From Deltaproteobacteria bacterium (GTDB taxonomy: Bacteria > Desulfobacterota > DSM-4660 > Desulfatiglandales > HGW-15), in assembly GCA_020060215.1 (NCBI GenBank), contig JAGVAP010000132.1:62001-126000 (forward strand): a stretch of DNA of 64,000 nucleotides, in the 5' to 3' direction. Every line of letters starts with the position of its first letter. The first letter of the stretch is position 1. The position numbers and the translations under genes are program-made. This document shows positions 39,620 through 61,290 of this stretch, piece by piece. The notes under the pieces are model-generated. The model made no database searches and was not told the origin of the DNA. It saw nothing but the letters and a program-made list of their open reading frames with translations.

Positions 39620-40078
39620 ATGCGGACACGGATCCTGATGGTGGACGATGAAAAGGAGTTCTTGGAGACCCTGGCGGAGCGGCTGGCCATGCGTGACTAT
39701 GACGTGACCACATCGCTCAGCGGCGAGGATGCCGTCGCAAGGATCAAGGCCTCCCGATTCGACGTGGTGATCCTCGATGTCTCCATGCCCGGCATGGACG
39801 GGGTCGACACGCTGCGGGAGATCAAGAGACTCGCCCCGTTGATCGAGGTGATCATGCTCACCGGCCATGCCACCGTGGATTCGGCCATTGACGGGATGAA
39901 GCTCGGGGCCTTTGATTACCTGAAGAAGCCCTGTGAGACCGAGGATCTGGTGGTCAAGATCGAGCAGGCCTACAGGCAGAAATCCGCTCACGAGGATCGC
40001 ATCCGTCAGGCCAGGATCAAGGAGATCATTCAATCTCCGAGGGCGGCCTTGAAAAGCAAATCCCCGCTGGATGTCTGA
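39620..40078 (+). CDS. Single-domain response regulator with C-terminal extension
   Basis: A 152-residue receiver: Asp-9/Asp-10, phosphoacceptor Asp-53 in ILDVSMPG, Thr in LTGHA, Lys in LKKPCE. The last 30 residues are basic and probably unstructured. GGAGG precedes the ATG. It ends the SulP-linked signalling cluster. The 3' end overlaps the convergent protease gene by 53 bp. Confidence 0.88.
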   Translation: MRTRILMVDDEKEFLETLAERLAMRDYDVTTSLSGEDAVARIKASRFDVVILDVSMPGMDGVDTLREIKRLAPLIEVIMLTGHATVDSAIDGMKLGAFDYLKKPCETEDLVVKIEQAYRQKSAHEDRIRQARIKEIIQSPRAALKSKSPLDV

Positions 40079-40586
40079 TCTTGGTGGTCGGGGAAGGAAC
40101 CCCTTCGATGGACTGCACAATACGGTCGCAGGCTTCTACGACCGCCGACCGGAGGGGTTCGGAGAGGCCGCATCTGACTTCAGCCGGGATGGAATCGACC
40201 TGGGCCACGAGGATCCTTATGTCGATCCCTGTATGATCTCTGAGCTCTTTGAGGAGATTCACGGTTGGAAACTGATGGAGGGAGAAATCGGCGCTCTTGT
40301 TGGTCGGGATCTCCTCGACCCGCAGCTCGAACACCTCACCGGGTTTGCGGCATGGAGAATCGACCGCATCGATGATCACGAGCTTCTGCGGCCTCTTCGG
40401 GCTCAATGCCAGATCAAAGAGGATGTCCCGGATACCGGTGCCGACATCCATCAAGAACACTTGGGATGGAAGTACGTAGTGCTTTTGAAGATGATCGATC
40501 ACCGAAGGTCCGAAGCCGTCATCCCCAAACAGGACATTCCCGCAGCCGAAGATGAGAATGGATTTCTCGTAGATCTCGCCCAGCAT
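40026..40586 (-). CDS. Hydrogenase maturation protease (HyaD/FrhD type)
   Basis: A 186-residue peptidase of the HycI/HyaD/FrhD family: FGCGNVLFGDDGFGPSV near the N-terminus with the nickel-sensing Glu/Asp position (the Asp of DDGFG), then MDVGTG and IIDAVD. Such enzymes cut the C-terminal peptide off the large subunit after nickel insertion. It is the last gene of the minus-strand hydrogenase cluster, 122 bp after mvhA, and should process MvhA after His-456. ATG 40586 follows GGGGAGG; ATG 40601 is an alternative. Confidence 0.88.
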   Translation of the reverse strand: MLGEIYEKSILIFGCGNVLFGDDGFGPSVIDHLQKHYVLPSQVFLMDVGTGIRDILFDLALSPKRPQKLVIIDAVDSPCRKPGEVFELRVEEIPTNKSADFSLHQFPTVNLLKELRDHTGIDIRILVAQVDSIPAEVRCGLSEPLRSAVVEACDRIVQSIEGVPSPTTKIRHPAGICFSRPPSEIE

Positions 40587-40617
40587 GCTCCTCCCCGCCA
40601 TCAGGAAGATAGAGTCC

Positions 40618-40687
40618 CGTAGGATGGGAGCGGCCCAAGAGCGCACGCGCTTGCGCGCGAGCTGCGGTCGCCGGACCCATCCCGCGG
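40618..40687. repeat. GTAGGATGGG-type dispersed inverted repeat
   Basis: GGATGGG (40622-40628) and CCCATCC (40676-40682) form the ends of a hairpin-like element, with a GC-rich inner palindrome (GCGCACGCGCTTGCGCGC). Related sequences occur at 43281-43310 and 51171-51258. It fills most of the gap between mvhA and the protease gene. Confidence 0.55.
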
Positions 40688-40708
40688 TGAGTGGTTCTCA
40701 GAAATCGA

Positions 40709-42154
40709 CTACCGCACGAACTGATCGAGTACCCGTGCGCCGGCGTCGACTATCGATACTTCCAGGTTCAGACCGCCGTCCAGGCGGTGGGTGGCGCAGC
40801 TCAGTCAGGGATCGTAGGCGCGTATGGCCATCTCCACTTTGTTCAGGATCCCTTCATCGTACTTCCCTTCACGGATCAATTCGGTAGCCGCCTTCTTCAC
40901 CGAGAGGTTCATGGCCGCATTGTTGTGCGTCGTCCCCACAATGAGGTTGAGTTGGGTGATGAGGCCTTCGGCGTCGGTTTCGTACTCATGGATCAGGGTG
41001 CCCCGAGGCGCCTCCACGCAACCCACACCCCGGGCCGCCCTGGGCTGGATCTTCACCCGCACCTCCGGGTGGGTGATCTCCGGGTCCTGCAGCAGTTCCA
41101 CGGCGTGCTCGGCGCACTGGACCATTTCGATCAGCCGGGCATAGTGATAGAGGAGGGTGTAGTGGGCCGGCCTGCCGAAGGCCGCGCGGAACTCCTCCAG
41201 CTCGGCCTGGGCCAAGGGCGTGGCCATCTTGTCGGCCACGTTGACGCGGGCCAGGGCATTGCTCCTGTACACCCCTTTGGGGCTCGCCAGGTCCATGGAC
41301 AGGCCGTCTCCCCATCTCCTGGCGTAAGGGAACTTCTGGTAGGACCAGGGCTCCACATGCTCTCCGATGTAGTCCCGGTACCGGTCGCAGGGAAAGTCCT
41401 CGAAGACGCCGTCGGCTTGCATCAGCCTGAGGTTGCCGTCATAAAAATCCAGGGCGCCGTCGGCGGTCACGGTTCCCAGGTAGCCGACCTCGATCACCCC
41501 GATGGACTTGATGGCGTCGATGTATTTGGGAAAGACATTCTTCTTGGCGAAGTCCAGGCTGAACACCGAGAAATCCAGCAGCTCTCTGGCCGGACCGAGC
41601 ATCTCCTGCCGCTCGGCCTCGCTCATGGGTTTGCTGACCCCTCCGGGGAGGGAGAAGGTGGGATGGATGGCCCGACCGGAGAACCCCTCCAGGAGCTTTG
41701 CCCCGAGGTGGCGCATGTGCACGACCTGTTTTGCCAGCTCCGGGGCTGCCTTGACGATTCCGATCACGTTTCGAACGGAGTAGTCCGAGTCCGGTCCTAT
41801 GACGAAATCGGGTGCCGCCAGAAAGTAGAAATTCAGGATTTTGTCGCTGATGTAGGCAATGCTCTGCATGAGTCTCCGCAGCTTCACGGCGGCCGGGGGC
41901 GGAGTGACGCCGAAGAGCGCATCCCCCGCCTTGGATGAGGCCAGGTGGTGCGCCCACGGGCAGATCCCGCAGATGTGGCAGACGATCCGGGGCATCTCTT
42001 CTGCGGGCCTTCCTTCACAGAACTTCTCGAACCCTCTCAGCGTCTGGACATGCAGGCGGGTATCTGCGACATTTCCCGCATCGTCGAGGTGGATGGCCAC
42101 CTTGGCGTGGCCTTCGATCCGGGTAACCGGCTGTATGTTGATCACGTTTCCCAT
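40709..42154 (-). CDS. mvhA: [NiFeSe] hydrogenase large subunit, Sec-containing (MvhA/VhuA type)
   Basis: A 481-residue large subunit of the methyl-viologen/F420-non-reducing hydrogenase group, if the in-frame UGA at 40805-40807 is read as Sec-450. The N-terminal ligand motif is CHICGIC (Cys-62 and Cys-65 as nickel ligands). The C-terminal motif is DP-U-LSCATH, in which UGA stands exactly where the first Cys of DPCxxC should be. Reading through adds 31 codons, including Cys-453 and His-456, the cleavage site, then a 25-residue tail. A hairpin 16 bases after UGA fits a bacterial SECIS. The enzyme oxidises H2 and passes electrons via MvhG and MvhD. Confidence 0.93.
40772..40788 (-). promoter_or_regulatory. 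Candidate SECIS hairpin in mvhA
   Basis: ACCGCC-TGGAC-GGCGGT (minus strand) forms a perfect 6-bp stem with a 5-base loop whose second base is G. The stem starts 17 bases after the UGA, matching bacterial SECIS geometry, and is the same as in the mvhD genes. Confidence 0.7.
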
Positions 42155-42168
42155 GCTGTCATCCCTCC

Positions 42169-43113
42169 TTATCTGGCCGGCCGGGCCGGAAGTGCGGTCA
42201 GAAAACCATGGGCGCCGATATAGCGGTTCATGATCGCCCTCCTGTCCACCACGGTTTTGGGATCGAGTCCGACCGAGCTGAGAGAGCCCATCATGTCCAC
42301 CATGGGTCGCGCCCCTTTGCGAATGGGTCCGAAACAACCCCGGCAGGGCGTTCGGGCCTGGACGCAGCGAGGCACCCCGCTCTTGCCGGCGCAGCCGGCC
42401 AGGGTTACCGGCCCAAGACAGAGCACGCCCTGCTCATTGATGCAGCGCATCTTGTCGAGACCCTCTTCAGGGTTGAACTGCAGGTTCTCGAGACATCTCT
42501 TGACGGGCCCGCCCCCCGATTTTTTTTCCCGTACCACCGGACAGGTGTCGCAGACGCTGCGCTCCGGGAGTTTCCAGGAGCCTTTGCCTTCGAGGAGTGC
42601 CGAGAGTCCATCCACGATCCAGTCCGGGTGAGGCGGACAGCCGGGGATGGTGATGTCGACCTTCACGACCTCGTCGAGGGCTGCGCAGGTGGGGGTCCAG
42701 GCCGGGATGTTCGGGTCTTTCGGGTCCGGCGAGGGCTCCGTGGAGGGGCTTTGCCGAAACACCTTCTCGAACACGTCCTCGTTCTTCCACATGTTGGCAT
42801 GGGCGGGGACCCCTCCGTAAGCGGCGCAGCTGCCCAAGGCAATCAGGACCTTCGCCTTCTTGCGTATCTCCTCCAGTTCGTGCTTGTGCTCGGCGTTGCG
42901 CACCCCCCCGGAGACGATCGCCACATCCGCCTCGGGGAGATCCATGGCCGTTTTCTCGCCCCGTTGCCCGAAGAACTTGTGATCCACCAGGGCCGTCATG
43001 TGGACGAATTCGAGCCGGGGCAACAGGTCGAGCAGCGGATCTCCGATATTGAGGATGGAGATCTCACAGCCTGAACAGGAATTCAACCAATCCTCCAGGA
43101 CTTTTACCGCCAT
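42169..43113 (-). CDS. mvhG: [NiFe]-hydrogenase small subunit (MvhG type)
   Basis: A 314-residue iron-sulfur subunit. The proximal cluster motif CSGCE is at 13-17, with GSCAAYGGVPA and IPGCPPHPDW in the middle, followed by further Cys near 190-255 for medial and distal clusters (CPVVREKK, CLGPVTLAGC, CRGCFGP). There is no twin-arginine signal, so the enzyme is cytosolic like Mvh. It lies 14 bp before mvhA. AAGGAGG is 7 bases before the start ATG; an upstream ATG at 43191 has no such site. It connects MvhA to MvhD. Confidence 0.92.
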   Translation of the reverse strand: MAVKVLEDWLNSCSGCEISILNIGDPLLDLLPRLEFVHMTALVDHKFFGQRGEKTAMDLPEADVAIVSGGVRNAEHKHELEEIRKKAKVLIALGSCAAYGGVPAHANMWKNEDVFEKVFRQSPSTEPSPDPKDPNIPAWTPTCAALDEVVKVDITIPGCPPHPDWIVDGLSALLEGKGSWKLPERSVCDTCPVVREKKSGGGPVKRCLENLQFNPEEGLDKMRCINEQGVLCLGPVTLAGCAGKSGVPRCVQARTPCRGCFGPIRKGARPMVDMMGSLSSVGLDPKTVVDRRAIMNRYIGAHGFLTALPARPAR

Positions 43114-43280: not shown

Positions 43281-43310
43281 TGCGCTTCGGGTCGCTCCAC
43301 CCATCCTACG
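43281..43310. repeat. GGGT-CGCTCCACCCATCCTAC-type repeat fragment
   Basis: The stretch ending in CTCCACCCATCCTACG matches the right end of the element at 51171-51258 and the inverted ends at 40618. It overlaps the region between mvhG and the small protein gene. Confidence 0.45.
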
Positions 43311-43500
43311 GGGATGGCTGCACGGTCACGACTCGTCTGGTATAGACGAGACACCGGCCGTCTTCGGCCACGATTTCCCCTTCAAACCCCTCCTTCCTGT
43401 AAGCGCCGAGGGCCGCCTCTGCCAGATCCCTGCTCTGGTAATCCGTCCCGTTCCACATGAACTTCTTTCCTTCGAACTTCATGGATGCGGCTGGTGCCAT
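43306..43500 (-). CDS. Small uncharacterised protein in the hydrogenase operon
   Basis: A 64-residue protein with the sequence pattern MKFEGKKFMWNGTDYQSRD, then a helix and a two-strand end. It has one Cys (in DGRCLVY). GGAGGCAGGAG lies directly before the ATG. It sits between mvhD and mvhG on the same strand, so it is probably translated with them. I do not recognise the family; a small regulator or assembly factor is possible. The 3' end touches a dispersed repeat, so the last residues may be strain-specific. Confidence 0.55.
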   Translation of the reverse strand: MAPAASMKFEGKKFMWNGTDYQSRDLAEAALGAYRKEGFEGEIVAEDGRCLVYTRRVVTVQPSP

Positions 43501-43613
43501 GATCTCCTGCCTCCTCCAACGACGATTCCCCTGGCCTGCAGCCAATCGGCATACGGGTGGTTGTTTGTTCGATGCTCCAAATTCGACTTTTCATACCGAG
43601 ATGGCGAACTTCT

Positions 43614-44033
43614 TCACCCTCTGTGGTTGTAGGGGCTCGGCCCGAGGCTCCTCAGGGTCTCGGTCATCTCGGTCACGACGTCGGCGAACTTCTGCGCCTC
43701 GGAGGAAGCGATCCACTCGAGGCGGAAGCGCTCGGGCTCCAACCCGAAATCCTCCAGCATCAACTCAATCCCCTCGGCCCTGTTCTTTGCTTTTTGATTA
43801 CCTTCCAGGTAATGGCATTCCCCAAGGTGTCAGCCGCACATCAGGACCCCATCGGCACCCTTGGTGAAGGCATCCATGACCAGGTTTGCGTGCACCATCC
43901 CCGAACACATCACCCGGATGATGCGGCCGTTGGGGGGATACTGAATCCTGGATACCCCGGCCAGGTCCGCCCCGGCATAGGAGCACCAGTTGCACAGGAA
44001 GGCGATGATCAAGGGCTCGAATTGCTCGTTCAT
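43614..44033 (-). CDS. mvhD: MvhD-type electron-transfer subunit, Sec-containing
   Basis: A 139-residue [2Fe-2S] protein if the in-frame UGA at 43830-43832 is read as Sec-68. The N-terminal half has [16 protein letters not shown] and [11 protein letters not shown], the second half [14 protein letters not shown] replaces the Cys expected in the VLVCGC-HPGDC motif, here MCG-U-HLGEC. Reading on gives a normal MvhD C-terminus ending 72 codons later. MvhD passes electrons from hydrogenase to HdrA. A hairpin 16 bases after UGA fits a SECIS. It lies between a receiver gene and a small protein gene in the hydrogenase cluster. Confidence 0.93.
43797..43813 (-). promoter_or_regulatory. Candidate SECIS hairpin in mvhD (module A)
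   Basis: ATTACC-TGGAA-GGTAAT (minus strand) is a perfect 6-bp stem with a 5-base loop, starting 17 bases after the UGA. It is identical in the second mvhD at 54630-54646. Confidence 0.72.
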
Positions 44034-44138: not shown

Positions 44139-44534
44139 TCACTCCTGAAGTAACTTCTCGTTTTTCATCCTGTGTTCATAGGCCAGGTCGATCTTCTCGA
44201 TCAGCTCATCCATGGGAACCGGCTTCAAAACGTAGTCGAAGGCGCCGAGCTGCAGGCCTTCGATTCCGGACTCCACGGTTCCGTGGCCGGTGAGCAGGAC
44301 CACCTCCACCAGCGGCTTCGCTGCCTTCACCTGCTTGAGGCACGCCAAACCGTCCATCCCCGGCATCCGTATGTCGAGGACGACCACATCGAAGTCCCGC
44401 TCTCCCAGGACTTCCAGCCCCTTCTCGCCCGTGGGGGCTGCATCGACGGCATATCCACGCAACTGCAACCGGTCTCGAAGGGAGTCCCGGAAGTCGTCTT
44501 CATCGTCCACGACCAGAACGCTGAACTTATTCAT
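44139..44534 (-). CDS. Single-domain response regulator inside the hydrogenase operon
   Basis: A 131-residue receiver: Asp-10/Asp-11, phosphoacceptor Asp-54 in VLDIRMPG, Thr in LTGHGT, Lys in LKPVP. It closely resembles the receivers at 38505, 39620 and the one fused at 35491. AGGAGG is 8 bases before the ATG. It lies between the NuoG-HdrA gene and mvhD on the same strand, 105 bp before mvhD. A receiver in a bifurcating-hydrogenase operon suggests control of enzyme activity or expression by the nearby kinases, but no direct evidence exists here. Confidence 0.9.
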   Translation of the reverse strand: MNKFSVLVVDDEDDFRDSLRDRLQLRGYAVDAAPTGEKGLEVLGERDFDVVVLDIRMPGMDGLACLKQVKAAKPLVEVVLLTGHGTVESGIEGLQLGAFDYVLKPVPMDELIEKIDLAYEHRMKNEKLLQE

Positions 44535-44640
44535 GACCATCGCCTCCTCTCTGCGGGCATGATGATCTCCGTTCATGAGAGGCATCGAACCATGAATGGA
44601 ATTCGTAGCTCATTTCTATCCCGCCCCCCGTGAGATCTCG

Positions 44641-44744: not shown

Positions 44745-47700
44745 TCAAACAAGACCGAGGGCCGCATCCACCTGCGCCCCCAACTGATCGAGCGAGAAGC
44801 CGGACACGTAGATGCCCTTCTTGGGGCATGTCGCCATGCAGGAGCCGCATCCCTTGCACACGGTCTCGTCGACATCCACCGTCTTCTTGACAGCTCCCTC
44901 CCATATGTACTCCATCAGGGTGATGGCCTTAAAGGGGCAGGCATCCACGCAGAAGGCACACCCGTCGCAGTTCTCATCGATGGGGTGGGACACCGTCGAG
45001 TCCAGCTCCAGATGGGTCCTGGAGAGGATGGTGTTGGCCCGGGATGCGGTGGCCAGGGCCTCTGCGATGGATTCCTGGATGGGCTTGGGGTAGTGACAGA
45101 GCCCGGCCAGGAAGATCCCGGCGCTGGAGGCGTCGACGGGTCTGATCTTGGCGTGGGCTTCCGTGAAAAAACCCTCTGCATTCAGAGGGACCTTGTAGAG
45201 CTCCGCCAGGGGGGCATTCTGATGGGGGACGATGGCCGTGGCCAGGGTGAGAAGGTCCACGACCAGTTCCACGGGCCTTCTGAGGACATGATCCGTGAGG
45301 CTGATCCGGATCCTGTCTTCGAAGTAATCGACCCTGGGCGGATCATCGAGATCGTAGCGGAAGAACATAACACCCCTTCGCCTGGCCTCCCTGAAGAGTT
45401 CTTCCCTCTGCCCGATGGTGCGCATATCGCGGTAGAGGATGTACACATCCATATCCGGGTCCATATCCTTGAGTCGAAGAGCGTTTTCCACCGCATGAGT
45501 GCAGCATACTTTGTTGCAGTAGGGCCTCTCCGGGATTCGGGAGCCCACACACTGGATGAAGGCCACGGCTTCGGCCGCCTGAACCCGCCGGCTCTGTCGG
45601 GCCAGTTCTCGATCCAGATCCAGGGAGAGGATCACATTGGGATGTCTCTTGTACAGGTACTGACCCTCGGGCCTCAGCGGTTCGGCGCCGATACAGATGA
45701 TCACGATTCCGTGCCTGATCTCGATTCCGTTGGAGAGCCTGCTCTTGAAGTTCCCCACCGTCCCTTCCACGCCGACGACGATATTTCCCAGGTGAACCGT
45801 AATCTTGTCATGGTTCTCCACATTGGCGATCAGTTCGTAGACGAAGGGGTGGATCCTCTCCTTCCTCCAGGAGGTGTGCAGTTTGAGGGCGTTGCCTCCC
45901 AGGCGGTCTTTTCTTTCCACCAGATCGACGTAATAGCCCTGATCCGCCAGTGCCATGGCACTCGTCAAACCGGCTACACCGCCCCCGATGACCAGGGCCT
46001 TACGATGGATCGGGACCGTGATGTACTCCAGGGACTCGATCAGGCGGGCCTTGGCAACCGCCATGCGGATCAGGTCTTTGGACTTCTCGGTGGCCTTTTG
46101 CGGCGCGTTCTGGTGGACCCAGGTGCACTGGTTCCGGATATTGGCCATCTCGAAGAGGTACTTGTTCAGACCGGCGTTCCTGAGCATATCCTGAAAAATG
46201 GGCTGGTGCGTGGAAGGGGTGCACGCTGCAACGACCACGCGGTTGAGGTCCTGCTCGCGGATTCTCTCCGCCATCTGCTTCTGCGCGTCCTGGGAGCAGC
46301 TGAAAAGGTTCTCCTGGACAAATTCCACATTGGGAATGGTGCGGGCATATTCGGCAATGGCCGGGACATCGGCCACCCCACCGATGTTGATGCCGCAGTG
46401 GCAGATGAAGACACCGATTCGCGGAGTCTGGCCCGCTACGTCTTTTTCGGGCGGGTAGCTCTTTTCCTTCAAGAGGCTGCCGCGAGAGACAGCAAGGTTG
46501 CGCGTAGCCTGGGCCGCCGCCGCGCTCCCTTCGGTCACCGTCTGGGGGATATCCTTGGGGCCGGTGAAAACACCGCACGCGTAGACTCCCGGGCGGGAAG
46601 TGCCCACCGGCTCAAAGCAGCTTGCGGACACGAAATGGTTGGGATCAAGTTCAATGCCCAACCGTTCGGCCATCTCCCTGGTCTCCGGGGATATGCTGAG
46701 CCCGGTGGCGAGAACCACCATCTCGAAGGTTTCCTCCCTGGTCTCGCCATGCTCGGTGACATACTGGAGAAACAGATCTCCGGTGTCCCTCTGCGGAAGA
46801 ACGGAGTGCACCCGGGATCGGATCAATCGTCCTCCCAGGTCCTGTGCCCTCTGGTAGTATTTTTCGAAGTCTTTCCTGTGGGTGCGCATGTCCATGAAAA
46901 AGACCGCCGTGTCGAGATCCGGCCCGAGGTGCTCCTTGGCGATCATGGTCTGCTTCAGAGAAGCCATGCAGCAGAAACCGGAACAGTACGGATGGAATCC
47001 CTCCTGTTCGCTTCGGGAGCCCACGCACTGGATCCAGGCTATCTTCCTGGGTTCCTTGCCGTCGGATCGCCTGGCGATGTGGCCTTTCAAGGGACCGCCC
47101 GGACTCAACATGCGCTCGAACTCCAGGGTCGTGACCACGTTGGGGTGATGATAAGCGAACCGCTCATATCCGGTGGGGTCGAACGGTTGGAAGCCGGGAG
47201 CCAGAATGACCGAGCCCACGTTGAGGGAGACCTCCTGCGGTTTCTGGTCGTAGTCGACGGCGCCGGCCTCACAGACCTCTGCGCAGACCCCGCAGTCTCC
47301 GGTGAGGATCCGGATGCAGTTCTTCCCGTCGATGGTGGGGGTGCTCGGCACCGCCTGGGGATAGAGGCGATGGATGTTGCCTCGGGTGGACAGGCCGACA
47401 TTGAATTCCGAGAGCTTGGGGATGGGGGTCTTGCCGCTGATCTTGGCAAGGTCTGCGATGTGGCCCGTCGGGCAGACAAAGGCGCATGCACCACAGGTCC
47501 TGCAGACCGGGCTGACTTCCCCGAAGGGGGTAGTCACTTCTCTCCCGGCCCCCCGGCCCATGAAGCCGATCGCCCCCACGTGCTGGAGCTCATGACAGAC
47601 CCTGACACACTTGCCGCACAGGATGCACGTCTCCTTGTGGGTCGAAAAACCCGGGCCGCAGACCCCGAGCTGCCGGGCCATTTCCTGCAAAGCAGGCACC

Positions 47701-51304: not shown

Positions 51305-52147
51305 CTAATACTCGGGAGGCAACTGCTTGAGTTGGGCCAGGGAAAAGACCGGTCCGTCCTTGCACACGTACTGGTCTCCGATATTGCACCTGCCGCATAT
51401 CCCGATGCCGCACTTCATGCGCATCTCCAGGGAGAGGATGATCCGCTCCGGAGGAAAGCCCAGCTTCACCAGCACGGGCTGGGTGAACTTGATCATGATC
51501 GGAGGCCCGCACACGATGGCGATACCGTTCTCCGCGCTCTTGATCTTCTGTTCCGTGATGGCCGGGACGAACCCTACGTTGTATTTCCAGTCCGGGTCCT
51601 TGGTCGCGTCCACCGTGATGTGCATGTGGATGTCGTCCCTCTTCTCCCACGCCGCCAGCTCCTCCCTGTAGAGAAGCATGCCGGGACTCCGGGCCCCGTA
51701 CACGACGGTGAGGTCCTTGAAACGGGAACGGTTGGCCGGATCGAGCATGTACACGATGCTGGAGCGGAGGGTGGTGAAGGCGAACCCGCCTCCGATGATC
51801 ACCACGTTCTTGCCTTCCATCTGGTCCCACGGGTACCAGTTCCCCAGCGGGCCGCGTATGCCCATGACATCCCCCTCCCGCATGTCATGGAGATAGGAGG
51901 TCACGTGACCGACCTTGTTGACCGTAAAGGCGACGAAGCCCTTCTCGGTCGGAGAAGAGGCGATGCCGATCGGGATCTCCCCCTTGCCCGCAATGGAGAG
52001 CTCTGCAAACTGTCCCGGGATGTAGGAGAACCTCTTCTCGTCTTCAGGATCCAGGAAGACGAATCTGAAGGTCTTCAGGTTCCTGTCCTCGGTCTCCGTC
52101 ACGATCCGATCGATTCTTACCGGATAGGGTAGGTATGGATTTTTCAA
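51305..52147 (-). CDS. FAD/NAD(P)-binding subunit (FlxA / sulfhydrogenase gamma type)
   Basis: A 280-residue flavoprotein of the ferredoxin-NADP reductase/PyrK group. The FAD part has FSYIPGQFAELSIAG and GIASSP, the NAD(P) part VVIIGGGFAFTTLR and IVCGPPIMIKF, and the C-terminal [2Fe-2S] motif is CGIGICGRCNIGDQYVC. Such subunits are FlxA in Flx-Hdr complexes and HydG in sulfhydrogenase. It would deliver electrons between NAD(P)H and module B. The start is TTG, supported by GGGGGTGAT just upstream; no ATG is near. It is the last gene of module B. Confidence 0.85.
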   Translation of the reverse strand: MKNPYLPYPVRIDRIVTETEDRNLKTFRFVFLDPEDEKRFSYIPGQFAELSIAGKGEIPIGIASSPTEKGFVAFTVNKVGHVTSYLHDMREGDVMGIRGPLGNWYPWDQMEGKNVVIIGGGFAFTTLRSSIVYMLDPANRSRFKDLTVVYGARSPGMLLYREELAAWEKRDDIHMHITVDATKDPDWKYNVGFVPAITEQKIKSAENGIAIVCGPPIMIKFTQPVLVKLGFPPERIILSLEMRMKCGIGICGRCNIGDQYVCKDGPVFSLAQLKQLPPEY

Positions 52148-53481: not shown

Positions 53482-54432
53482 CTATTTCACGAAATCATTG
53501 TAGTCGTTCACCCGGTACACATCCAGCGGGGGCCGCTGCTTGGTGTCGAGACCGGCCTCCCAGCCGTAGAGCTGGAAGACATCCTTGTTGAGCTTCCGGG
53601 TCAGCTCCCTGACAGGGATCCCCACCGGGCAGACCCTCTCGCACGCCCCGCAGTCCGTGCACCTCCCCGCACAGTGGTATGCCCGCAGAAAATGAAAGGT
53701 CATGGTATCCACGGGATCGATGCTCTTTCCCACCCACTGGGGCCTGGATTCGTCCACGAAGCAGGTGGGGCAGTAACAGAGGGGGCAACCGTTCCGACAG
53801 GCATAGCAGCGGATGCACGGCGAAAGGATCTCTCTGAAGTACTGCTGTTTTTCTTCCGCGCTCTTCCCCTCGACGGCCTCCACACCCTGAAAAGGATCGA
53901 TCCCTTTCTGCTCTTCCACCGGGTCTGCCACCATCTCGTCGTATTCCACAGGATTGCGGTGGATGCAGAGGCTGCAGTTGCTCCTCAGAACCTGCCTTTT
54001 CTCGAAGGTCTCCCGGAATCCGTCTCCCGACACCGTGATGGACCCGCCGTCTTCCGAGACCTCGAGGATCTCCCGCTCCCCGAGTCTCCTCTTCACGGCC
54101 CTGTGGTCGATCATCCCGGTACAGGGGATGCCCACGATGTAGAGCTGTTCTCTCTTGATCTGGTTTTCCACCATGTGGGTGACGATGTTCCTGGAGTTGC
54201 AGCCGTTGGCCACTATGCCCACCCTGTCGGTCCTCTTGGTCAGGTAGTTGCAGAGGTTCAGTCCGCAGTGGCTGTCCCAATGCAGACGGTCGCTCTCGGA
54301 GGGGTCCTTGATCAGGACGGGCTCGTTCATCATGGGCACGGTGCCCTTCCTGTAACCGATGAAGACGTCGACCTTCCCCCCTTCCAGGAGCTTTCGGGCA
54401 ATCGTTCTGATCTTTTCTGTATACGCGAGCAT
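53482..54432 (-). CDS. Iron-sulfur subunit (FlxB / F420-hydrogenase-beta or HdrC-like)
   Basis: A 316-residue protein. The N-terminal half resembles F420-hydrogenase/formate dehydrogenase beta subunits (VDVFIGYRKGTVP, VGIVANGCNSRN, GIPCTGMID). The C-terminal half has Cys-rich segments CIRCYACRNGCPLCYC and CTDCGACERVCPVGIPV. No clear F420 or FAD site is seen. It lies between MvhD and the FlxC-like gene, and its ATG overlaps the mvhD stop by one base (TGATG). It probably relays electrons within the Flx-like part of module B. Confidence 0.8.
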   Translation of the reverse strand: MLAYTEKIRTIARKLLEGGKVDVFIGYRKGTVPMMNEPVLIKDPSESDRLHWDSHCGLNLCNYLTKRTDRVGIVANGCNSRNIVTHMVENQIKREQLYIVGIPCTGMIDHRAVKRRLGEREILEVSEDGGSITVSGDGFRETFEKRQVLRSNCSLCIHRNPVEYDEMVADPVEEQKGIDPFQGVEAVEGKSAEEKQQYFREILSPCIRCYACRNGCPLCYCPTCFVDESRPQWVGKSIDPVDTMTFHFLRAYHCAGRCTDCGACERVCPVGIPVRELTRKLNKDVFQLYGWEAGLDTKQRPPLDVYRVNDYNDFVK

Positions 54433-54863
54433 CACGCCACCTCGGCTCTTCGCTTGACGAGGACCCTTGCGGGGCCCGAATCCTTGACCGCCTGGATCAC
54501 CTTGTTTGCGACGTCCACGAATTTGGTCGCCTCGGCAGAGGAGATCCACGAAAAATGCAGCCGCCCCGGCTCCAGACCGATATGTTCGAGCAGGTTCTTG
54601 AGCAGGGCGAATCTTCTTCTTGCGTAGTAATTACCTTCCAGGTAATGGCAGTCTCCGGGGTGTCACCCCGAGACCCAGACGCCGTCCGCGCCGTGCCGGA
54701 AGGAGGCAAGAATCAGCTTCGGGCTCACCCGGGCCGAACAGGGGACGCGGATGACCCGGATGTTCGGCGGATACTGGAGACGGCTGACACCGGCGAGGTC
54801 CGCGGCGCCGTAGCTGCACCAGTTGCACAGGAATGCGGTGATCTTGGGTTGCCAATCGTTCAT
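54432..54863 (-). CDS. mvhD: Second MvhD/FlxD-type subunit, Sec-containing (module B)
   Basis: A 143-residue protein if the in-frame UGA at 54663-54665 is Sec-67. N-terminal [16 protein letters not shown] and RVIRVPCSA match MvhD, and after UGA the frame gives [13 protein letters not shown]. In the usual VCGC motif this copy has WVSG-U, with Ser in place of the first Cys, so its cluster ligands differ from the module A copy. Reading through gives 76 further residues of normal MvhD C-terminus. GGAG lies 6 bases before the ATG chosen. It links the HdrA part of module B to the Flx-like subunits. Confidence 0.92.
54630..54646 (-). promoter_or_regulatory. Candidate SECIS hairpin in mvhD (module B)
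   Basis: ATTACC-TGGAA-GGTAAT (minus strand), a perfect 6-bp stem and 5-base loop, begins 17 bases after the UGA. It is identical to the hairpin at 43797 and encodes the same conserved HYLEGN stretch. Confidence 0.72.
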
Positions 54864-55095: not shown

Positions 55096-55182
55096 CCTGA
55101 GGAGTGAGGCGTACCACTCGTACGCCGCAACGACGAAGGATGCGGGCAACGCCGCAGATGGCGTTTTTCAGCAACCTGCTCA
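55096..55182. repeat. Dispersed repeat related to the 9341 element
   Basis: TGAGGAGTGAGGCGTAC...GTACGCCGCAACGACGAAGGATGCGGGCAACGCCGCAGATGG resembles the core of the element at 9341-9469. It contains GGCGTAC-CACTC-GTACGCC, a perfect stem. It fills the right end of the gap before the nuoG-hdrA stop codon. Confidence 0.6.
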
Positions 55183-58100
55183 CATCTCGTTGATCATCGC
55201 CATCAACTGCCTCTCCTCGAACCCCTTGAGGTTGAGGGCCCCCGATCGGCACGAGGCCACGCAGAGCCCGCACCCCTTGCAGAGGACCGGGTTGATCTCG
55301 GCCCTGCCTGCAAAACGTCCATCCCTGATAAGGGAAGGCGCGGAGTAGGGGCAGACCTGAACGCAGACCCCGCAGCTGCTGCAGCTCATGGGGTCTGCGG
55401 CCGCGACCATGCCGCTCACGGAGATCTTCTTCCTCGCGAGGAGGGTGACCGCCCTGGAGGCGGCCGCCTGGGCCTGGGCCACGGACTCGTCGATGGGCTT
55501 GGGGTAATGGGCCATGCCGCAGAGGAAGACGCCGTCCGTGGCGAACTGCGACGGACCGAGCTTGGCGTGCGCCTCCACGAAGAACCCGTCCTCGTTCATG
55601 GGCACCTTGAAGAACTGCGCGATCTTCTCGTCCCGATAAGGGACAATGGCGGCGGCCAGGGTGAGGAGATCGGCCTTGAGGGCGATCGGGCGGGCCAGCA
55701 CATGGTCGGTCACCTGGATCGACAGACCGTCCTTCCCGGCCGTGACCACCGGCTTCGCGTCGCGCGAGTACCGGATGAAAAAGACCCCTGACTGGCGCGC
55801 CTTTCGGTATAGAAGCTCCCGCTCCCCGAAGGTCCGGATGTCCCGGTAGAGGATGTAGACATTCATCTCCGGGTTGATCTCCTTCAGACGGACGGCACTC
55901 TCCACGGAGTGCGTGCAGCAGACCCTGGAACAATAGGGCCGATCAGGCTCCCTGGAGCCCACGCACTGGATGAAGACCGCGGAGTTGAGCCCCTTCAGAG
56001 AGGGGTCGTTTTCCATGAACCTGCGGTCCAGCTGCTGGTGGGTCAGGACGCGGGGGTCGTCGCCGTAGAGGTATTCTTTGGGCTTGTACTCATAGGCCCC
56101 GGTGGCCACCACCGCGATCCCGTGCTCGATGGTCGCCGCGTTGCCGCCCGACTCCAAGGTGGACTTGAAGTTGCCCACGAACCCCTCCACCCTGCTCAGT
56201 TCCGAGTTGAGGAAGAGATCGATGTTGCGGTCCGCCTTCACGGACTCGATCAGCTGCGCAACCTCCTTCTGGATCTCCTCGCCCTTCCAGCTCCTGAAGA
56301 GGTTCAGGGCCTGGCCCCCGAGGACCGGCTCCCTCTCCACCAGGCTGACCTGGTACCCCTGATCGCTCAGGGACCTCGCGGCGACCATGCCCGATATGCC
56401 TCCGCCGAGCACCAGCGTTTTCTGGTTCACATCGAGGGGCGGTTCGGGAAGGGGCTCCATGAGCGCGACCTTGGCCGCAGCCATCCGGACCAGGTCCTTG
56501 GCCTTTTCCGTGGCCTCGCCCGGATCGGACTTGTGGACCCAGGAGTCGTGATTCCGGATATTGGTCATCTCGAAGAGGTACTTGTTCAACCCTGCGTTCA
56601 CGAGCGTCTCCTGGAAGAGGGGCTCATGCGTCTTGGGGGTGCAGGCGGCGACCACGATCCGGTTCAGGTTGTTGGCCTTGATCACCTGGGCCATGGTGTC
56701 CTGGGTGTCCTGGGAGCAGGAGTAGAGGTTGTCCGCGACGTACTCGACATAGGGAAGGGTCTTGGCATAGTCCCGAACCGCGGCCACGTTGACCACGCCC
56801 CCGATGTTGATGCCGCAGTTGCAGACGAATACGCCGATCCTGGGCCTCTCGCCGCGCACGTCCCTCTGCTCCGGGATCTCCCTGGACCTGGTCAGGGTGT
56901 TGCGGGACTTGCTGAGAAGGGCGCCGGCCCGGGCCGCTGCCGAGCTGGCCTCGATGACGGACTGGGGGATGTCCTTGGGCCCCTGGAAGGCGCCGCACAC
57001 ATAGACCCCCTCCCGGGAGGTGGCGACCGGCTGGAAGGAGCCGGTCCTGCAGAAACCGGATTCCGTGAGCTCGATGCCGAACTTCTTTGCGAGATCCATG
57101 ACGTCCGGAGAGGATTCGAGCCCCACCGACAGGACCACCATGTCGAAGGGTTCGGTCCTGGCCTCGCCGTCCTCGCTCGCGTACTTGATGAGGAGGGCGC
57201 CGTTGCTCGCAGCGGGCTCGACCGAGTGCACCCGCGAACGGATGAAGCGGACCCCGTGCTTGTTCCTGGCATCCTCGTAGTACCGCTCGAACTCCTTCCC
57301 ATGGGTCCGCATGTCCATGTAGAAGACGGCGCAGTCCAGCCCGTCTCCGGAGTGCTCCTTGGCGATCACCGCCTCCTTGATGGCGTACATGCAGCAGACC
57401 GAGGAGCAGTAAGGATGGTCGCAGCGGTTCACGTCCCTGGACCCGACGCACTGCAGCCAGGCGATCTTCCTGGGCGCCTTGTGGTCGGAGAGTCGGACCA
57501 GGTGGCCGGAGGTGGGACCCGATGCGGAGAGGATCCGCTCGAACTCCATGGAGGTGACCACGTTCGGCAGCTTGGAATAGCCGTACGCAACGTACTTGGA
57601 CGGATCGAAGGGCTGAAAACCGGGTGCGAGGATGACCGCCCCCACGTCGAGCTCGACGATCTCGTCCTTCTGCGTGTGATCGATGGCCCCCACGCCGCAG
57701 AATTCCGTGCAGATCTTGCACCCGCCGGTCTTGAAGTGGACGCACTGGCTCCGGTCGATGGCCGGGGTGTTCGGGATGGCCTGCGCATAGGGGACGTAGA
57801 TCGGCTTGCGGCCCTTCAACCCCATGTCGTATTCCGACGGGATGCGCTTGATCGCGTGCTTTGCGATATCCTCCAGCCTGATGTGGCCGGTGGGGCAGAC
57901 CGAAACGCAGGCACCGCACCCCATGCAGAACTCCGTCTGCACATGGAAGGGGGTGTCCACCTTCATCTCCGTGCCGCGGCCGGTCAGGCTGATGGCGGCG
58001 TTCCCCATCCTCTCGCAGATCCGGGTGCAGAGGCCGCAGAGGATGCAGTCGTCGTCCTCTTTCCGGAAGCGCGGCTCCCCGATCCCGTACTTTGCGGCGA

Positions 58101-58413
58101 GCTCCTTGAGGAGGGGGACCTCCGGGCAGCGGGCCAGGAGCATCTCCACGATCAGCTTGCGGCCCTTGTGCACCGGTTCCGTGTCCGTCTTGACCTCCAT
58201 GCCCTCCCAGATCGGGTAGTTGCACGAGGTGACGAACCGCGTCCTTCGGCCGTCAAACACCTCGACCGTGCACAACCGGCACATCCCGGCAGGCTCCAGC
58301 GCCTTGTGGTAACAAAGGGTCGGGATCTCCACCCCGTACTTCTGGGCGACCTGCAGGATGTATTGTCCCTCTTCCCCCTGGACCGTCTTGCCATTCAGTT
58401 TGAACGTAATCAT
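55180..58413 (-). CDS. NuoG N-terminal / double HdrA fusion protein (module B)
   Basis: A 1077-residue paralog of the module A protein with the same order. A NuoG-like front (Cys in LCYHKALEPAGMCRLCTVEV, CILCGLCTRIC, CMGCGACVSVCPTG) is followed by an HdrA C-terminal half (YAQAIPNTPAID, VGAVILAPGFQPFDP, AWLQCVGSR). A second HdrA comes next (FVCNCGINIGG, LVLGGGISGMVAARSL, VFIQCVGSR), and two terminal ferredoxin motifs (CSSCGVCVQVCPYS, CKGCGLCVASCRSG). The FAD/Sec N-terminal half of the first HdrA is a separate gene at 60892. It lies 25 bp after nuoF. Confidence 0.9.
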   Translation of the reverse strand: MITFKLNGKTVQGEEGQYILQVAQKYGVEIPTLCYHKALEPAGMCRLCTVEVFDGRRTRFVTSCNYPIWEGMEVKTDTEPVHKGRKLIVEMLLARCPEVPLLKELAAKYGIGEPRFRKEDDDCILCGLCTRICERMGNAAISLTGRGTEMKVDTPFHVQTEFCMGCGACVSVCPTGHIRLEDIAKHAIKRIPSEYDMGLKGRKPIYVPYAQAIPNTPAIDRSQCVHFKTGGCKICTEFCGVGAIDHTQKDEIVELDVGAVILAPGFQPFDPSKYVAYGYSKLPNVVTSMEFERILSASGPTSGHLVRLSDHKAPRKIAWLQCVGSRDVNRCDHPYCSSVCCMYAIKEAVIAKEHSGDGLDCAVFYMDMRTHGKEFERYYEDARNKHGVRFIRSRVHSVEPAASNGALLIKYASEDGEARTEPFDMVVLSVGLESSPDVMDLAKKFGIELTESGFCRTGSFQPVATSREGVYVCGAFQGPKDIPQSVIEASSAAARAGALLSKSRNTLTRSREIPEQRDVRGERPRIGVFVCNCGINIGGVVNVAAVRDYAKTLPYVEYVADNLYSCSQDTQDTMAQVIKANNLNRIVVAACTPKTHEPLFQETLVNAGLNKYLFEMTNIRNHDSWVHKSDPGEATEKAKDLVRMAAAKVALMEPLPEPPLDVNQKTLVLGGGISGMVAARSLSDQGYQVSLVEREPVLGGQALNLFRSWKGEEIQKEVAQLIESVKADRNIDLFLNSELSRVEGFVGNFKSTLESGGNAATIEHGIAVVATGAYEYKPKEYLYGDDPRVLTHQQLDRRFMENDPSLKGLNSAVFIQCVGSREPDRPYCSRVCCTHSVESAVRLKEINPEMNVYILYRDIRTFGERELLYRKARQSGVFFIRYSRDAKPVVTAGKDGLSIQVTDHVLARPIALKADLLTLAAAIVPYRDEKIAQFFKVPMNEDGFFVEAHAKLGPSQFATDGVFLCGMAHYPKPIDESVAQAQAAASRAVTLLARKKISVSGMVAAADPMSCSSCGVCVQVCPYSAPSLIRDGRFAGRAEINPVLCKGCGLCVASCRSGALNLKGFEERQLMAMINEM

Positions 58414-58438
58414 GCGTGAAATCCCTCTTGGTCCTCGA

Positions 58439-60334
58439 TCATCTCACGACCACGGCGTTGAACTTACAGGCATCGAAACAGATCCCGCACTTGATGCACT
58501 TTTCCGTGTCCAGGACGTGCGGCTCCTTCTTCTCCCCGGTGATGGCTTCCTGAGGGCACTTGGGACCGCACACATGGCAGCCGGTGCAGGCCTGCTCGTC
58601 GATCTCGTAATGGAAGAGCGGCTTGCAGACGCCCGCCGGGCACTTCTTGTCGCGGATATGGGCCACATATTCGTCGTGGAAGTACAGGATGGTGGTCAGG
58701 ACCGGGTTCGGCGCCGAGGTGCCCAGCCCGCAGAGGGAGAACTTCTGGACCATCTCCCCGATCTCCTCGAGGAGCTCGATGTCGCCCTCCTTGCCGTTTC
58801 CTTCGCAGATCCCGGTCAGGATCTCGAGCATGCGCTTGATCCCTTCCCTGCAGGGGTTGCACTGACCGCACGACTCCTCCTTGAGGAACTCCAGGAAGTA
58901 GCGGGCGAGATCCACCATGCAGGTGGTCTCATCCATGACGATCATCCCGCCGGAGCCCATCATGGACCCGACCTTGGTGAGCTCGTCGAAATCCACCCCC
59001 AGGTCCAGGAAGAGCTCCGGGATGCAGCCGCCCGAAGGACCTCCGGTCTGCACCGCCTTGAAATCGCGCTTCCTCGGGATCCCCCCGCCCATCTCGAAGA
59101 TGATGTTGCGCAGGGAAGTCCCCATGGGCACCTCCACCAGACCCGTGTTCTTCACCTTACCCACCAGGCTGAATACCTTCGTGCCCTTGCTGCGCGGGGT
59201 GCCCATGCCCGAAAACCAGTCCGCGCCCTTGAGCAGGACCACCGGGACATTGGCGTAGGTCTCGACGTTGTTGAGGTTGGAGGGGCTCTCCCGGAACCCC
59301 TTCTCGACGGTATGGACGTACTTGGCCCTCGGCCTCCCGACCAGCCCCTGGAGCGAGGCCATCAGGGCCGTGGACTCCCCGCAGACAAAGGCCCCTGCGC
59401 CCGTGGAGATCTTGATCCGAAAACTGAAATCCGACCCGGCGATCCGGTCCCCGAGGAGACCCATTGCCTCCGCCTGTCGGATGGCGGTGACCAGCCTCCT
59501 CACGGCCAGCGGGTATTCGTTCCGCACATAGATGAACCCCTGGCTGGAACCGATGGCATAACCGGCGATCAGCATCCCCTCGATCACGCTGTGGGGGTCG
59601 CCTTCCAGGACGCTCCGGTCCATATAAGCGCCGGGGTCGCCTTCATCGGCATTGCAGATGACGTATCGCTCTCCATGATGTTTTGCGCAGGTTTCCCATT
59701 TGATCCCCGTGGGAAAGCCTCCGCCCCCCCGTCCTCTCAGCCCGGACTTCTTGATCGCCGCGATGATCTCCTTCGGCTCCATCTCGTCCAGGGCGCGGGC
59801 CAGGGCGAAGTAGCCGCCCCTGGCGATATACTCCTCGATGCTGTCGGGGTCGATAAAGCCGCAGTTGCGCAACGCGATCTTGACCTGCCGTGCGTAGAAC
59901 GGGATCTCCTCCAGGAAGGGGACCTTTTCCAGTTTGGCGCCATTGACCGGGTTCGGGATGTGCTCTTCCAGGAGAGAGCGGGGGTCCCGTATCTGGCCCA
60001 GGATTCCCTTCCTGTCGAACTTCCCGTCCATGTAGCCGCTGATGATCCCGGTGATCTTGTCCTGCGTTGCGCGCTTGTAGACCAGGCGCGGTCGATCCTT
60101 TGCCAGGACCTCGACCAACGGCTCTTCCTCGCAGAAGCCGATACAGCCCGTCTGGCGGACGCGGACAGGCCCGCCAGGGAATTCCGCCATCGCCTTCTCG
60201 AAGGTCTCCTTCCCGCCCGCGGCTATCCCGCAGGAGGCCATCCCGACGTTGACCACGAACCCTTCGGGGTGGTACAGCCTCCTGCTGGTCTCCGCGCTGA
60301 TCTTCTCGAGATCCTTCAAAGATCGAATTCTCAT
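58439..60334 (-). CDS. NuoF-type NADH-binding subunit (module B)
   Basis: A 631-residue paralog of the module A subunit. It has an N-terminal thioredoxin-like [2Fe-2S] domain (CGIAAG, CIGFCEEEP), FMN/NADH motifs GLRGRGGGGFPTGIKW, CNADEGDPGAYMDR and CGESTALMASLQG, the [4Fe-4S] site ESCGQCNPCREG, and two C-terminal ferredoxin motifs. FMN- and NADH-binding residues appear intact. It is 21 bp after nuoE and should be the NAD(H) entry or exit point of module B. Confidence 0.93.
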   Translation of the reverse strand: MRIRSLKDLEKISAETSRRLYHPEGFVVNVGMASCGIAAGGKETFEKAMAEFPGGPVRVRQTGCIGFCEEEPLVEVLAKDRPRLVYKRATQDKITGIISGYMDGKFDRKGILGQIRDPRSLLEEHIPNPVNGAKLEKVPFLEEIPFYARQVKIALRNCGFIDPDSIEEYIARGGYFALARALDEMEPKEIIAAIKKSGLRGRGGGGFPTGIKWETCAKHHGERYVICNADEGDPGAYMDRSVLEGDPHSVIEGMLIAGYAIGSSQGFIYVRNEYPLAVRRLVTAIRQAEAMGLLGDRIAGSDFSFRIKISTGAGAFVCGESTALMASLQGLVGRPRAKYVHTVEKGFRESPSNLNNVETYANVPVVLLKGADWFSGMGTPRSKGTKVFSLVGKVKNTGLVEVPMGTSLRNIIFEMGGGIPRKRDFKAVQTGGPSGGCIPELFLDLGVDFDELTKVGSMMGSGGMIVMDETTCMVDLARYFLEFLKEESCGQCNPCREGIKRMLEILTGICEGNGKEGDIELLEEIGEMVQKFSLCGLGTSAPNPVLTTILYFHDEYVAHIRDKKCPAGVCKPLFHYEIDEQACTGCHVCGPKCPQEAITGEKKEPHVLDTEKCIKCGICFDACKFNAVVVR

Positions 60335-60355
60335 CTCTTCGCCTCTTCTCCCGGC

Positions 60356-60853
60356 TTATTCATACCCGTCCAGCACCTTCTTCATTTCGTCCGGCGATAT
60401 CCGGGCGTGGACATCTTCATTGATCTTCACGACAGGCCCGAGGCTGCAGCAGCCGATACAACGCACCGATTCCAGGGTATATCGACCGTCCTCGGTGGTT
60501 TCACCGTCTCTGACGGCCAGATGCTCCTTGATCGTATCGTGCACGCGGCCGGCGCCGCGGACATGGCAAGCGGTGCCCAGACAGATGGAGATGACGTTCC
60601 GTCCCCTGGGTTCCAGGCTGAAACCGGCATAAAAGGTCGCGATGCCGTAGATGCGGCTGATCGGAAGCGAGACCTTCTCCGCGACATAGTACAGCGTAGC
60701 CTCAGGAAGGAAGTTGTAGCGCCTTTGGATGGCCTGGAGAATCATGATGAGATTCTCCTTGTCGCTGCCGAACTCCTTTTCGATGAGATCGTCCAGCTCG
60801 AGAAAATCGATCTCTACAGGCTGTGTGGCCTGAGCGGGGCTTGCCGCTCTCAT
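60356..60853 (-). CDS. NuoE-type [2Fe-2S] subunit (module B)
   Basis: A 165-residue thioredoxin-like [2Fe-2S] protein. Cluster Cys are in ICLGTACHVRG and VRCIGCCSLGP; the helical front has ILQAIQRRYNFLPEATLYYVAE, typical for NuoE/HndA/HydC. It pairs with NuoF. In module A the same domain is fused to HdrA'. GGGGAGG lies 7 bases before the ATG at 60853; the frame extends upstream to 60895 but overlaps hdrA' without a ribosome site. Confidence 0.92.
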   Translation of the reverse strand: MRAASPAQATQPVEIDFLELDDLIEKEFGSDKENLIMILQAIQRRYNFLPEATLYYVAEKVSLPISRIYGIATFYAGFSLEPRGRNVISICLGTACHVRGAGRVHDTIKEHLAVRDGETTEDGRYTLESVRCIGCCSLGPVVKINEDVHARISPDEMKKVLDGYE

Positions 60854-60891
60854 AGGGTTTCCTCCCCTCTTCCGGAACCGGTCCGACCCGA

Positions 60892-61290
60892 TCAAGCGAC
60901 GTCGGACACCGGTTTAGGTTGATTGACGACAGGGCAGTTCTCCACGCAGACGCCGCACCCGGTGCAGAGCTCCGTGTTGATGCTTCGGGCCCGCTTCCGG
61001 ATCTTCACCTTGAAGTGACCGGGGGTCCCTTCGATGGACTCGATATCGGAGTAGGTAATAAGCTCTATATTGAGATGCCGGCCGACCTCGACCAGTTTGG
61101 GCGAGATGATTCACATGGCGCAGTCGTTGGTGGGAAAGGTCTTGTCCAACTGGGACATGACGCCGCCAATGGCCGGAGACTTCTCGAGGAGGTAAACATA
61201 ATAACCGGAATCGGCCAGATCGAGGGCCGACTGCATCCCGGCTATACCTCCGCCGACGACAAGAACCGAGCCTTTCACCTGGTCAGACAT
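60892..61290 (-). CDS. Stand-alone HdrA N-terminal half, Sec-containing (module B)
   Basis: A 132-residue protein if the in-frame UGA at 61111-61113 is Sec-60. It begins [19 protein letters not shown] (FAD loop) and has [11 protein letters not shown], then [12 protein letters not shown], and a single ferredoxin motif [13 protein letters not shown] near the C-terminus. This is exactly the first half of a normal HdrA, ending where the HdrA half in the 55180 protein begins. Sec stands at residue 60 in both this protein and the module A copy, supporting the starts. It is the first gene of module B, 220 bases after a promoter. Confidence 0.88.
61078..61095 (-). promoter_or_regulatory. Candidate SECIS hairpin in hdrA' (module B)
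   Basis: CTGGTC-GAGGTC-GGCCGG (minus strand), identical to 50586-50603, with the loop starting 22 bases after the UGA. Confidence 0.6.

Follow-up and report, generated by a model that had tools for sequence, protein, structure and literature searches.

Which enzyme results when a hydrogenase, an NAD-binding module and the heterodisulfide reductase subunit HdrA are encoded side by side? The question is raised by a 64-kb stretch of a deltaproteobacterial genome of the order Desulfatiglandales (contig JAGVAP010000132.1, positions 62,001 to 126,000). This whole stretch is the window, and coordinates are counted from its first letter. It carries two co-directional minus-strand operons within 40026-61290. 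In transcription order, module B (61290-51305) is first and module A (50798-40026) is second. Module A may encode a reversible H2:NAD+:ferredoxin bifurcating [NiFeSe] hydrogenase. A hydrogenase of the Mvh type, MvhD, an HdrA pseudo-dimer as conduit and possible second branch point, and a BfuABC core would form one cytoplasmic complex. Judged from the sequences, this reading has a probability of about 0.55. The genes named in the original prediction were found on the minus strand where it had placed them, in both modules. Its combination of hydrogenase, HdrA and NAD module, with neither HdrB nor bam genes in the window, is real and conserved in other genomes.

Bfu genes nested in a split HdrA gene

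In both modules, bfuC-bfuB-bfuA is nested within an hdrA gene. The cut lies between the two cysteine motifs of the inserted ferredoxin domain of HdrA. The 5′ piece of this first HdrA (HdrA1) is fused to BfuC in module A (297 amino acids (aa), 49908-50798) and separate in module B (132 aa, 60892-61290). The 3′ piece is fused to BfuA in both. A second HdrA (HdrA2) follows in the same chain and completes an HdrA pseudo-dimer. What had been listed as 'NuoG/HdrA' and 'HdrA′' is a single protein of 1077-1082 aa. In module A (44745-47993), it consists of BfuA (residues 1-185), the 3′ half of HdrA1 (190-500) and HdrA2 (523-1082); the module B fusion (1077 aa, 55180-58413) has the same parts. The short HdrA 5′ piece was absent from the earlier gene list, as were a response regulator and a 64-aa orphan.

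Residues 8-122 of the module A 5′ piece correspond to residues 145-259 of HdrA (PDB 5odc_A), and the fusion resumes at HdrA 257. Neither piece holds a complete FAD domain. A frameshift or pseudogene was rejected as origin of the short piece, since the same separate or BfuC-fused piece recurs in relatives. Chance or an assembly artefact was also rejected, because the fusion recurs in 37 other rows. The comparison had 41 full-length BfuA-HdrA-HdrA rows, comprising these 37, two from the window and two from contigs taken by their length as duplicates; many of the rows linked to neither a hydrogenase nor Flx-like genes end near a contig end. Lys409 sits at N5 of the bifurcating FAD. Its equivalent, residue 347 in the fusion, is present in 110 of 110 HdrA1, and HdrA2 has Lys in 35 of 110 (cores derived from the loci, window and duplicates included). 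In a structure model of the fusion, low-confidence stretches cluster at 121-246, the part that would need partner chains and clusters. The VIA-align listing for the fusion covered mainly HdrA2 and was uninformative on BfuA.

The genes read as NuoE and NuoF encode BfuC and BfuB, the NAD/ferredoxin core of HydABC-type bifurcating enzymes, rather than complex I subunits. BfuB of module A (48010-49911) had its top PDB match in HydB of HydABCSL (7t2r_B, 771 bits), and the next two matches were also of the Bfu type (766 and 761 bits). The nearest complex I chain, 2fug_1, reached only 408 bits, and a complex I origin was rejected. BfuB comprises an FMN/NAD domain and a C-terminal 2[4Fe-4S] part. The ligands of the B2 cluster mark the Bfu family (PMC9304861). 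Equivalents of Cys438, His525, Cys531 and Cys536 occur in both modules. At position 476, BfuB of module B (58439-60334) has Cys, which gives the ligand set C,C,H,C,C; in module A, Thr stands there and the set is C,T,H,C,C. A loss of bifurcation in module A was considered and dropped, because about two thirds of BfuB carry Thr at this position (PMC9304861). The BfuB domains and B2 ligands are those expected of the Bfu family, to which both proteins probably belong. BfuC of module B (60356-60853), also NuoE-like, matched the Pfam family 2Fe-2S_thioredx (7e-47). In module A, residues 145-291 of the fused HdrA1 5′ piece and BfuC align to HydC (7t2r_C). The BfuA part has 12 cysteines (34, 45, 48, 64, 123, 126, 129, 133, 164, 167, 170, 174) that are invariant in 39 sequences. 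They could ligate one [2Fe-2S] and two [4Fe-4S] clusters, the set of the A1/A2/A4 enzymes of PMC9304861.

The proposal that NuoEF replaces HdrB and HdrC as acceptor appears unlikely. In the HdrABC-MvhAGD structure, the inserted ferredoxin domain is the presumed ferredoxin exit, and a separate cluster serves HdrBC (PMC9012536). With BfuA grafted into the inserted ferredoxin domain, the Bfu core would be wired to the ferredoxin exit and not to the HdrBC exit. HdrB and Bfu are not alternatives either, because six loci of other genomes (L006, L012, L126, L128, L129, L130) have an HdrB-type CCG gene upstream alongside the Bfu genes.

A search by regular expression on both strands of the window detected no CCG (HdrB-type) domain; HdrC was not searched by model. 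Neither HdrB nor the Bam tungsten enzyme BamB (AFOR family) was among 48 window proteins scanned with Pfam. By the original prediction's own terms, HdrB/HdrC or bam genes just outside the window that complete a known complex would count against it, and relatives bear this out in part. An HdrC/HdrB-fused gene lies right after hycI in L112 (17388-18788, plus strand), a split form, and in L136 (4191-5529, minus strand), an HdrL form with a domain inserted into an unsplit HdrA. Both fused genes have an in-frame TGA between the Fe-S half and the CCG half, and we take them to be DsrK/HdrD-like. In contrast, no CCG gene was found by regular expression over 3.7-5.2 kb downstream in L113, L133/L134 and L123. 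HdrBC may possibly be encoded in trans, beyond the 64-kb window.

Predicted selenocysteine sites and conservation in other genomes

Five in-frame TGA codons are located in both HdrA 5′ pieces, both MvhD and MvhA. Their plus-strand coordinates, lowest position first, are 61111-61113 and 54663-54665 in module B and 50619-50621, 43830-43832 and 40805-40807 in module A. Relatives with a readable alignment mostly have TGA or Cys opposite the five sites; exceptions are a few truncated 5′ pieces, which align to other positions. Cys occupies the HdrA, MvhD and MvhA sites in the distant loci L078, L123 and L124. This alignment of TGA and Cys supports the prediction that all five codons encode selenocysteine (Sec). 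Hairpins 3′ of the codons were not better than those of shuffled sequences (z -1.2 to 1.0), and selenocysteine insertion sequence elements behind the codons are unproved. Sec60 of the module A 5′ piece maps without gaps onto HdrA 197, a cluster ligand supplied in trans (PMC9012536). The Sec of the module B piece was placed at the Cys197 position by comparison with this mapped copy. Sec at the Cys197 site predicts a selenium-ligated Fe-S cluster.

The hydrogenase part of module A starts with MvhD (43614-44033), followed by the small subunit MvhG (42169-43113), the large subunit MvhA (40709-42154) and a maturation protease of the HycI/HyaD type (40026-40586; Pfam HycI 3.6e-22). MvhA is of the Mvh/Vhu type and has a C-terminal extension. 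Its C-terminal DPxxxC motif reads DP-TGA-LSCATH, hence DPULSCATH if Sec is inserted, with Cys at this site in L078, L123 and L124. MvhA would fit a [NiFeSe] hydrogenase of the Vhu/Mvh type with Sec in this motif. Its top solved match was the F420-non-reducing hydrogenase subunit A (9sw2_F, 421 bits), and the HydABCSL large subunit (7t2r) reached 392 bits. The NCBIfam Vhu models match the hydrogenase subunits below their curated cut-offs. In module B, MvhD (FlpD; 54432-54863, Pfam FlpD 2.7e-53) is followed by a 4Fe-4S dicluster protein, FlxC-like by position (53482-54432), a sulfhydrogenase-beta/AsrA-like Fe-S protein (FlxB-like, 52303-53349) and a sulfhydrogenase-gamma/AsrB-like FAD/NAD(P)-binding reductase (FlxA-like, 51305-52147). 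FlxD/MvhD is clear; FlxA, FlxB and FlxC are so named by sulfhydrogenase, Asr and Fer4 resemblance only.

Contigs of GTDB genomes were scanned, and the best 80 of 593 stretches were kept as loci. The same gene order, which the original prediction had proposed to look for, is present in eight other hydrogenase-linked split loci (L111-L114, L123, L124, L131, L133; 46-70% identity) and in ten other Flx-linked split loci (L009, L012, L014, L015, L020, L117-L121). Two distant split hydrogenase loci have Cys in place of Sec. The gene order is not due to chance, because it recurs in other genomes. Of 395 genomes sampled from one phylum, 276 gave a match at E <= 1e-150. A nearly full-length fusion was listed for at least 20 genomes, with two matches scored per genome. 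Within the order of genome G309, 20 of 29 genomes had an MvhG match at E <= 1e-60. Twelve of these matches had 75-84% identity, with six split forms, two HdrL forms and four at contig ends. Split-form records are labelled mostly as deltaproteobacterial groups; Spirochaetes, Aerophobetes, Stahlbacteria and an Altiarchaeales single cell also occur. The contig labelled as Altiarchaeales single-cell genome (L013) may represent contamination or transfer. P0047, which its source labels Desulfobacca acetoxidans, is a fusion of the split form as well.

Several loci differ in layout. L001 (7091-20426) is a formate dehydrogenase-like variant in which a molybdopterin enzyme and then an FrhB-like protein follow the split HdrA/Bfu fusion and MvhD; the FrhB-like gene is followed by another BfuCBA set, this one unfused. 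In L031 (7126-19900), split and plain HdrA pairs stand in tandem in one operon upstream of MvhD and Flx-like genes. Regulatory-type CBS-domain-like and PHP-like genes, recognised by eye, separate BfuB from the BfuA-HdrA fusion in L006 (7100-10000) and L012 (7150-10000). BfuB of L113 (14120-15850, minus strand) appears as two high-scoring segment pairs, probably by an assembly frameshift. The adjacency of modules B and A (50798-51305) was not seen in other loci, whose flanks extend up to about 10 kb on either side.

The orphan in the mvhD/mvhG gap of module A (43306-43500, 64 aa) is conserved and had no Pfam or NCBIfam match. Its family spans 30 protein clusters, the window's own included, with tblastn matches in other loci. 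The pattern is KKFMWDG...Y...LVYSRRV. The orphan is conserved in the mvhD/mvhG gap or, in L006, ahead of hypB/hypD-like genes. Regulators on the minus strand are a single-domain response regulator within module A (44139-44540), a two-receiver-domain protein (61612-63291) and the C-terminus of a sigma-54-type activator (63593-64000), the last two upstream of module B. Common regulation of the two modules is possible.

Proposed electron path and its alternatives

We infer the complex, its electron path and its stoichiometry from gene content, domain cut points, conserved ligands and operons, and state changes in trees, which are direct observations. Hydrogen would be oxidised at MvhA, and electrons would pass the MvhG clusters and MvhD to the C-terminal ferredoxin domain of HdrA2. 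The FAD of HdrA1, which retains the Lys409-type residue, would come next, followed by a cluster coordinated jointly by the N-terminal domain of HdrA2 and Sec197 of the HdrA1 5′ piece. From there, the inserted ferredoxin domain of HdrA, rebuilt from two chains, would lead to the BfuA clusters and the FMN of BfuB. The BfuB FMN would deliver electrons to NAD+ and ferredoxin. The net reaction would be reversible: 2 H2 + NAD+ + 2 Fdox = NADH + 2 Fdred + 3 H+ (Fd, ferredoxin). The likeliest splitting site would be the FMN/Fe-S core of Bfu. HdrA1 would be a conduit with a free HdrBC port and, under some conditions, possibly a second branch point. Module B would have the same NAD/ferredoxin front end and HdrA pair, with a Flx-like NAD(P)H module replacing the hydrogenase.

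Some observations weigh against a path with HdrA1 as conduit. HdrA1 retains Lys409 and a Cys-rich motif of the TrxR domain, which a mere conduit would not need. In addition, HdrC/B-fused genes adjoin the L112 and L136 operons, which leaves room for a third partner in the complex. Bifurcation may instead take place at the FAD of HdrA1. High-potential electrons would go to an HdrBC- or HdrD-type partner encoded in trans, and low-potential electrons would enter Bfu and reduce ferredoxin and NAD+. The invariance of Lys409 in HdrA1, the six split loci with upstream HdrB-type genes and the fused genes after hycI all point in this direction. However, the regular expression found no CCG gene in the 64-kb window or in the 3.7-5.2 kb downstream of L113, L123 and L133/L134, and low-potential electrons would presumably be wasted on NAD+. 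We regard this arrangement as rather doubtful.

The complex may also run mainly in reverse for syntrophy. Bfu would confurcate NADH and reduced ferredoxin, and H2 would be evolved from electrons that pass through HdrA and Mvh. The NiFe-Bfu reaction can run both ways, and BfuABC of Bam-Bfu is proposed to draw on NADH and ferredoxin and to feed HdrA (PMC9304861). Nothing in the sequence sets the direction. A mainly reverse function is considered improbable. It is very improbable that the genes encode separate, known enzymes and have only the operon in common. Mvh, HdrA and Bfu genes do occur apart in other loci. Yet HdrA is split here with no complete FAD domain in either piece, BfuC is fused to HdrA in module A and BfuA in both modules, and the gene order is kept down to 46% identity.

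The proposed bifurcating hydrogenase shares parts with several known systems. The NiFe-HydABCSL enzyme (NiFe-Bfu) of Acetomicrobium mobile (PDB 7t2r) has BfuB, BfuC, a group 3 NiFe hydrogenase, NAD(H) and ferredoxin in common with it. In this Type 3 NiFe-Bfu, the hydrogenase feeds BfuA via cluster A3 (PMC9304861). In contrast, the ligands in BfuA of the window suffice for no more than one [2Fe-2S] and two [4Fe-4S] clusters and lack the A3 signature. MvhD and two HdrA units are interposed, and the active site would contain Sec. HdrABC-MvhAGD of methanogens and sulfate reducers (PDB 5odc, 9sw2) shares HdrA, MvhD, MvhG and MvhA with module A, but its HdrA is a homodimer; here HdrA is split, fused to Bfu and arranged as pseudo-dimer, and no HdrB was found in the operon or window. 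FlxABCD-HdrABC shares MvhD/FlxD and, by resemblance only, FlxA/B/C-like subunits beside HdrA with module B, which differs by a second NAD site in BfuB and by the lack of an HdrB among the genes found. The Bam class II benzoyl-CoA reductase (Bam-Bfu) also has an HdrA-type module and homologues of BfuABC, BamI, H and G, and Bam has been proposed to combine Bfu and HdrA (PMC9304861). The BfuA homologue BamI is a separate subunit there, whereas the window has a hydrogenase or Flx-like module and no BamB was found.

HdrL of Desulfobacterium autotrophicum also has an NAD(P)H module joined to HdrA (PMC2702500). HdrA 9-11 of the anaerobic methanotrophic archaea ANME-1 have an NfnB insert in the ferredoxin domain and were noted as possibly having two bifurcation sites (PMC9012536). 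In both cases the insert is a single flavoprotein domain, about 441-452 aa long and in frame, in an unsplit HdrA; the window has three genes and a split HdrA. The fused tandem HdrA 3/4 of ANME are complementary in the presence of Cys197 and the N-terminal domain, as in the window (PMC9012536). The window differs in the reversed order, with the Cys197/Sec unit first, and in the split gene, Sec at 197 and the Bfu graft. A bfu or nuoEF set nested in hdrA, or this hydrogenase complex, was not met in the open-access literature searched by terms, which does not establish its absence in print. Passages of PMC5109826, PMC6129605, PMC5736913, PMC6305446 and PMC13101534 contain no description of a nested bfu/hdrA or of this complex. 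The third substrate of the hydrogenase version, H2, is simple and makes the question of HdrA and Bfu in series testable.

States of HdrA and a probable exchange of the front end

Relatives with an unsplit HdrA are of two kinds, without insert (51 loci; two deviate by -16 and 40 aa) or with an insert of 441-452 aa (14 loci). The insert of P0037 is an FAD domain of the NfnB/GltD/dihydropyrimidine dehydrogenase type, and the top solved match of the stretch was 9bov_A. The P0037 core is 84.7% identical to module A. The HdrL-type insert was recognised in P0037 by domain search and in L115 and L136 by insert length. HdrA of the window lacks an in-frame NfnB/GltD-like domain and is split with bfuCBA instead. 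The NfnB/GltD-like domain in relatives suggests that the insertion site of HdrA serves NAD(P)H coupling.

The HdrA core was analysed in a FastTree phylogeny of 229 rows, including a few duplicates. The state was known for 207 (108 split, 59 plain, 40 HdrL); 22 stateless rows were not counted. The tree had 33 state changes, whereas 200 shuffles gave 84 on average and never fewer than 76; at least 28 changes remained with nodes under 99 collapsed. IQ-TREE with 67 chosen rows gave 17 changes, or 14 after collapse of bootstrap values under 99. The states switch among orthologous hydrogenase operons too. In the MvhG+MvhA tree, the HdrL-form operons L132 and L136 are at separate places among split operons, and L132 stands beside split L133 (support 99/99).

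In trees of 16 short segments, the number of changes was lowest at residues 233-308 (12). It rose to 28 and 31 in the two segments that follow and to 38-52 in the remaining 13. With split and HdrL forms alone, the first segment had 7 changes and all others 18-28. The signal rests mainly on this first segment, whose cluster motif may have co-adapted to the insert. The HdrA 5′ piece tracks the state better than the core, with 8 versus 18 changes in 97 loci. L116 has 68-70% identity to module A in HdrA-N, BfuC and BfuB and 59% in BfuA, but only 48-54% in the HdrA core and 45% in MvhD. L123/L124 show the opposite, with 48-54% in BfuB, 41% in BfuA, 75% in MvhD and 62% in MvhA. The HdrL-form L115 has a 5′ piece that is closest to those in the split L113 and L114, an argument against the front end moving as one unit in every case. 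These patterns favour an exchange of the front end by recombination near the junction; co-adaptation of the cluster motif beside the junction is a partial alternative.

Repeated fresh insertions were rejected, since the split forms compared can be aligned over the BfuA-HdrA junction. One origin followed by exchange is therefore favoured, though unproved. Split and HdrL forms as co-resident paralogues with gene conversion were probably not the main cause. The second fusion match had only 50-52% identity in G309, G347, G247 and G202; two matches were scored per genome, and the metagenome-assembled genomes may be incomplete. Contrary to this rejection, G329 holds an HdrL form (67%) and a plain form (63-64%), and L031 has the split and plain pairs in tandem.

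This probable exchange of the front end leads to a broader and more tentative proposal. The inserted ferredoxin domain of HdrA may be a general socket for NAD(P)H machines, holding none, an NfnB/GltD-like domain or the three-gene Bfu set, swapped by recombination near the junction. The nested form would have two serial bifurcation sites and a cluster with a Sec ligand in trans, and would couple H2, NAD(H), ferredoxin and an HdrBC-dependent fourth partner. If so, the two sites would be the HdrA FAD with Lys409 and the FMN/Fe-S core of Bfu. Within one gene, an in-frame domain would have been swapped repeatedly for a cassette of three genes, an unusual example of modular evolution. The frequently swapped NAD(P)H insert suggests a plug-in construction kit for energy-saving enzymes.

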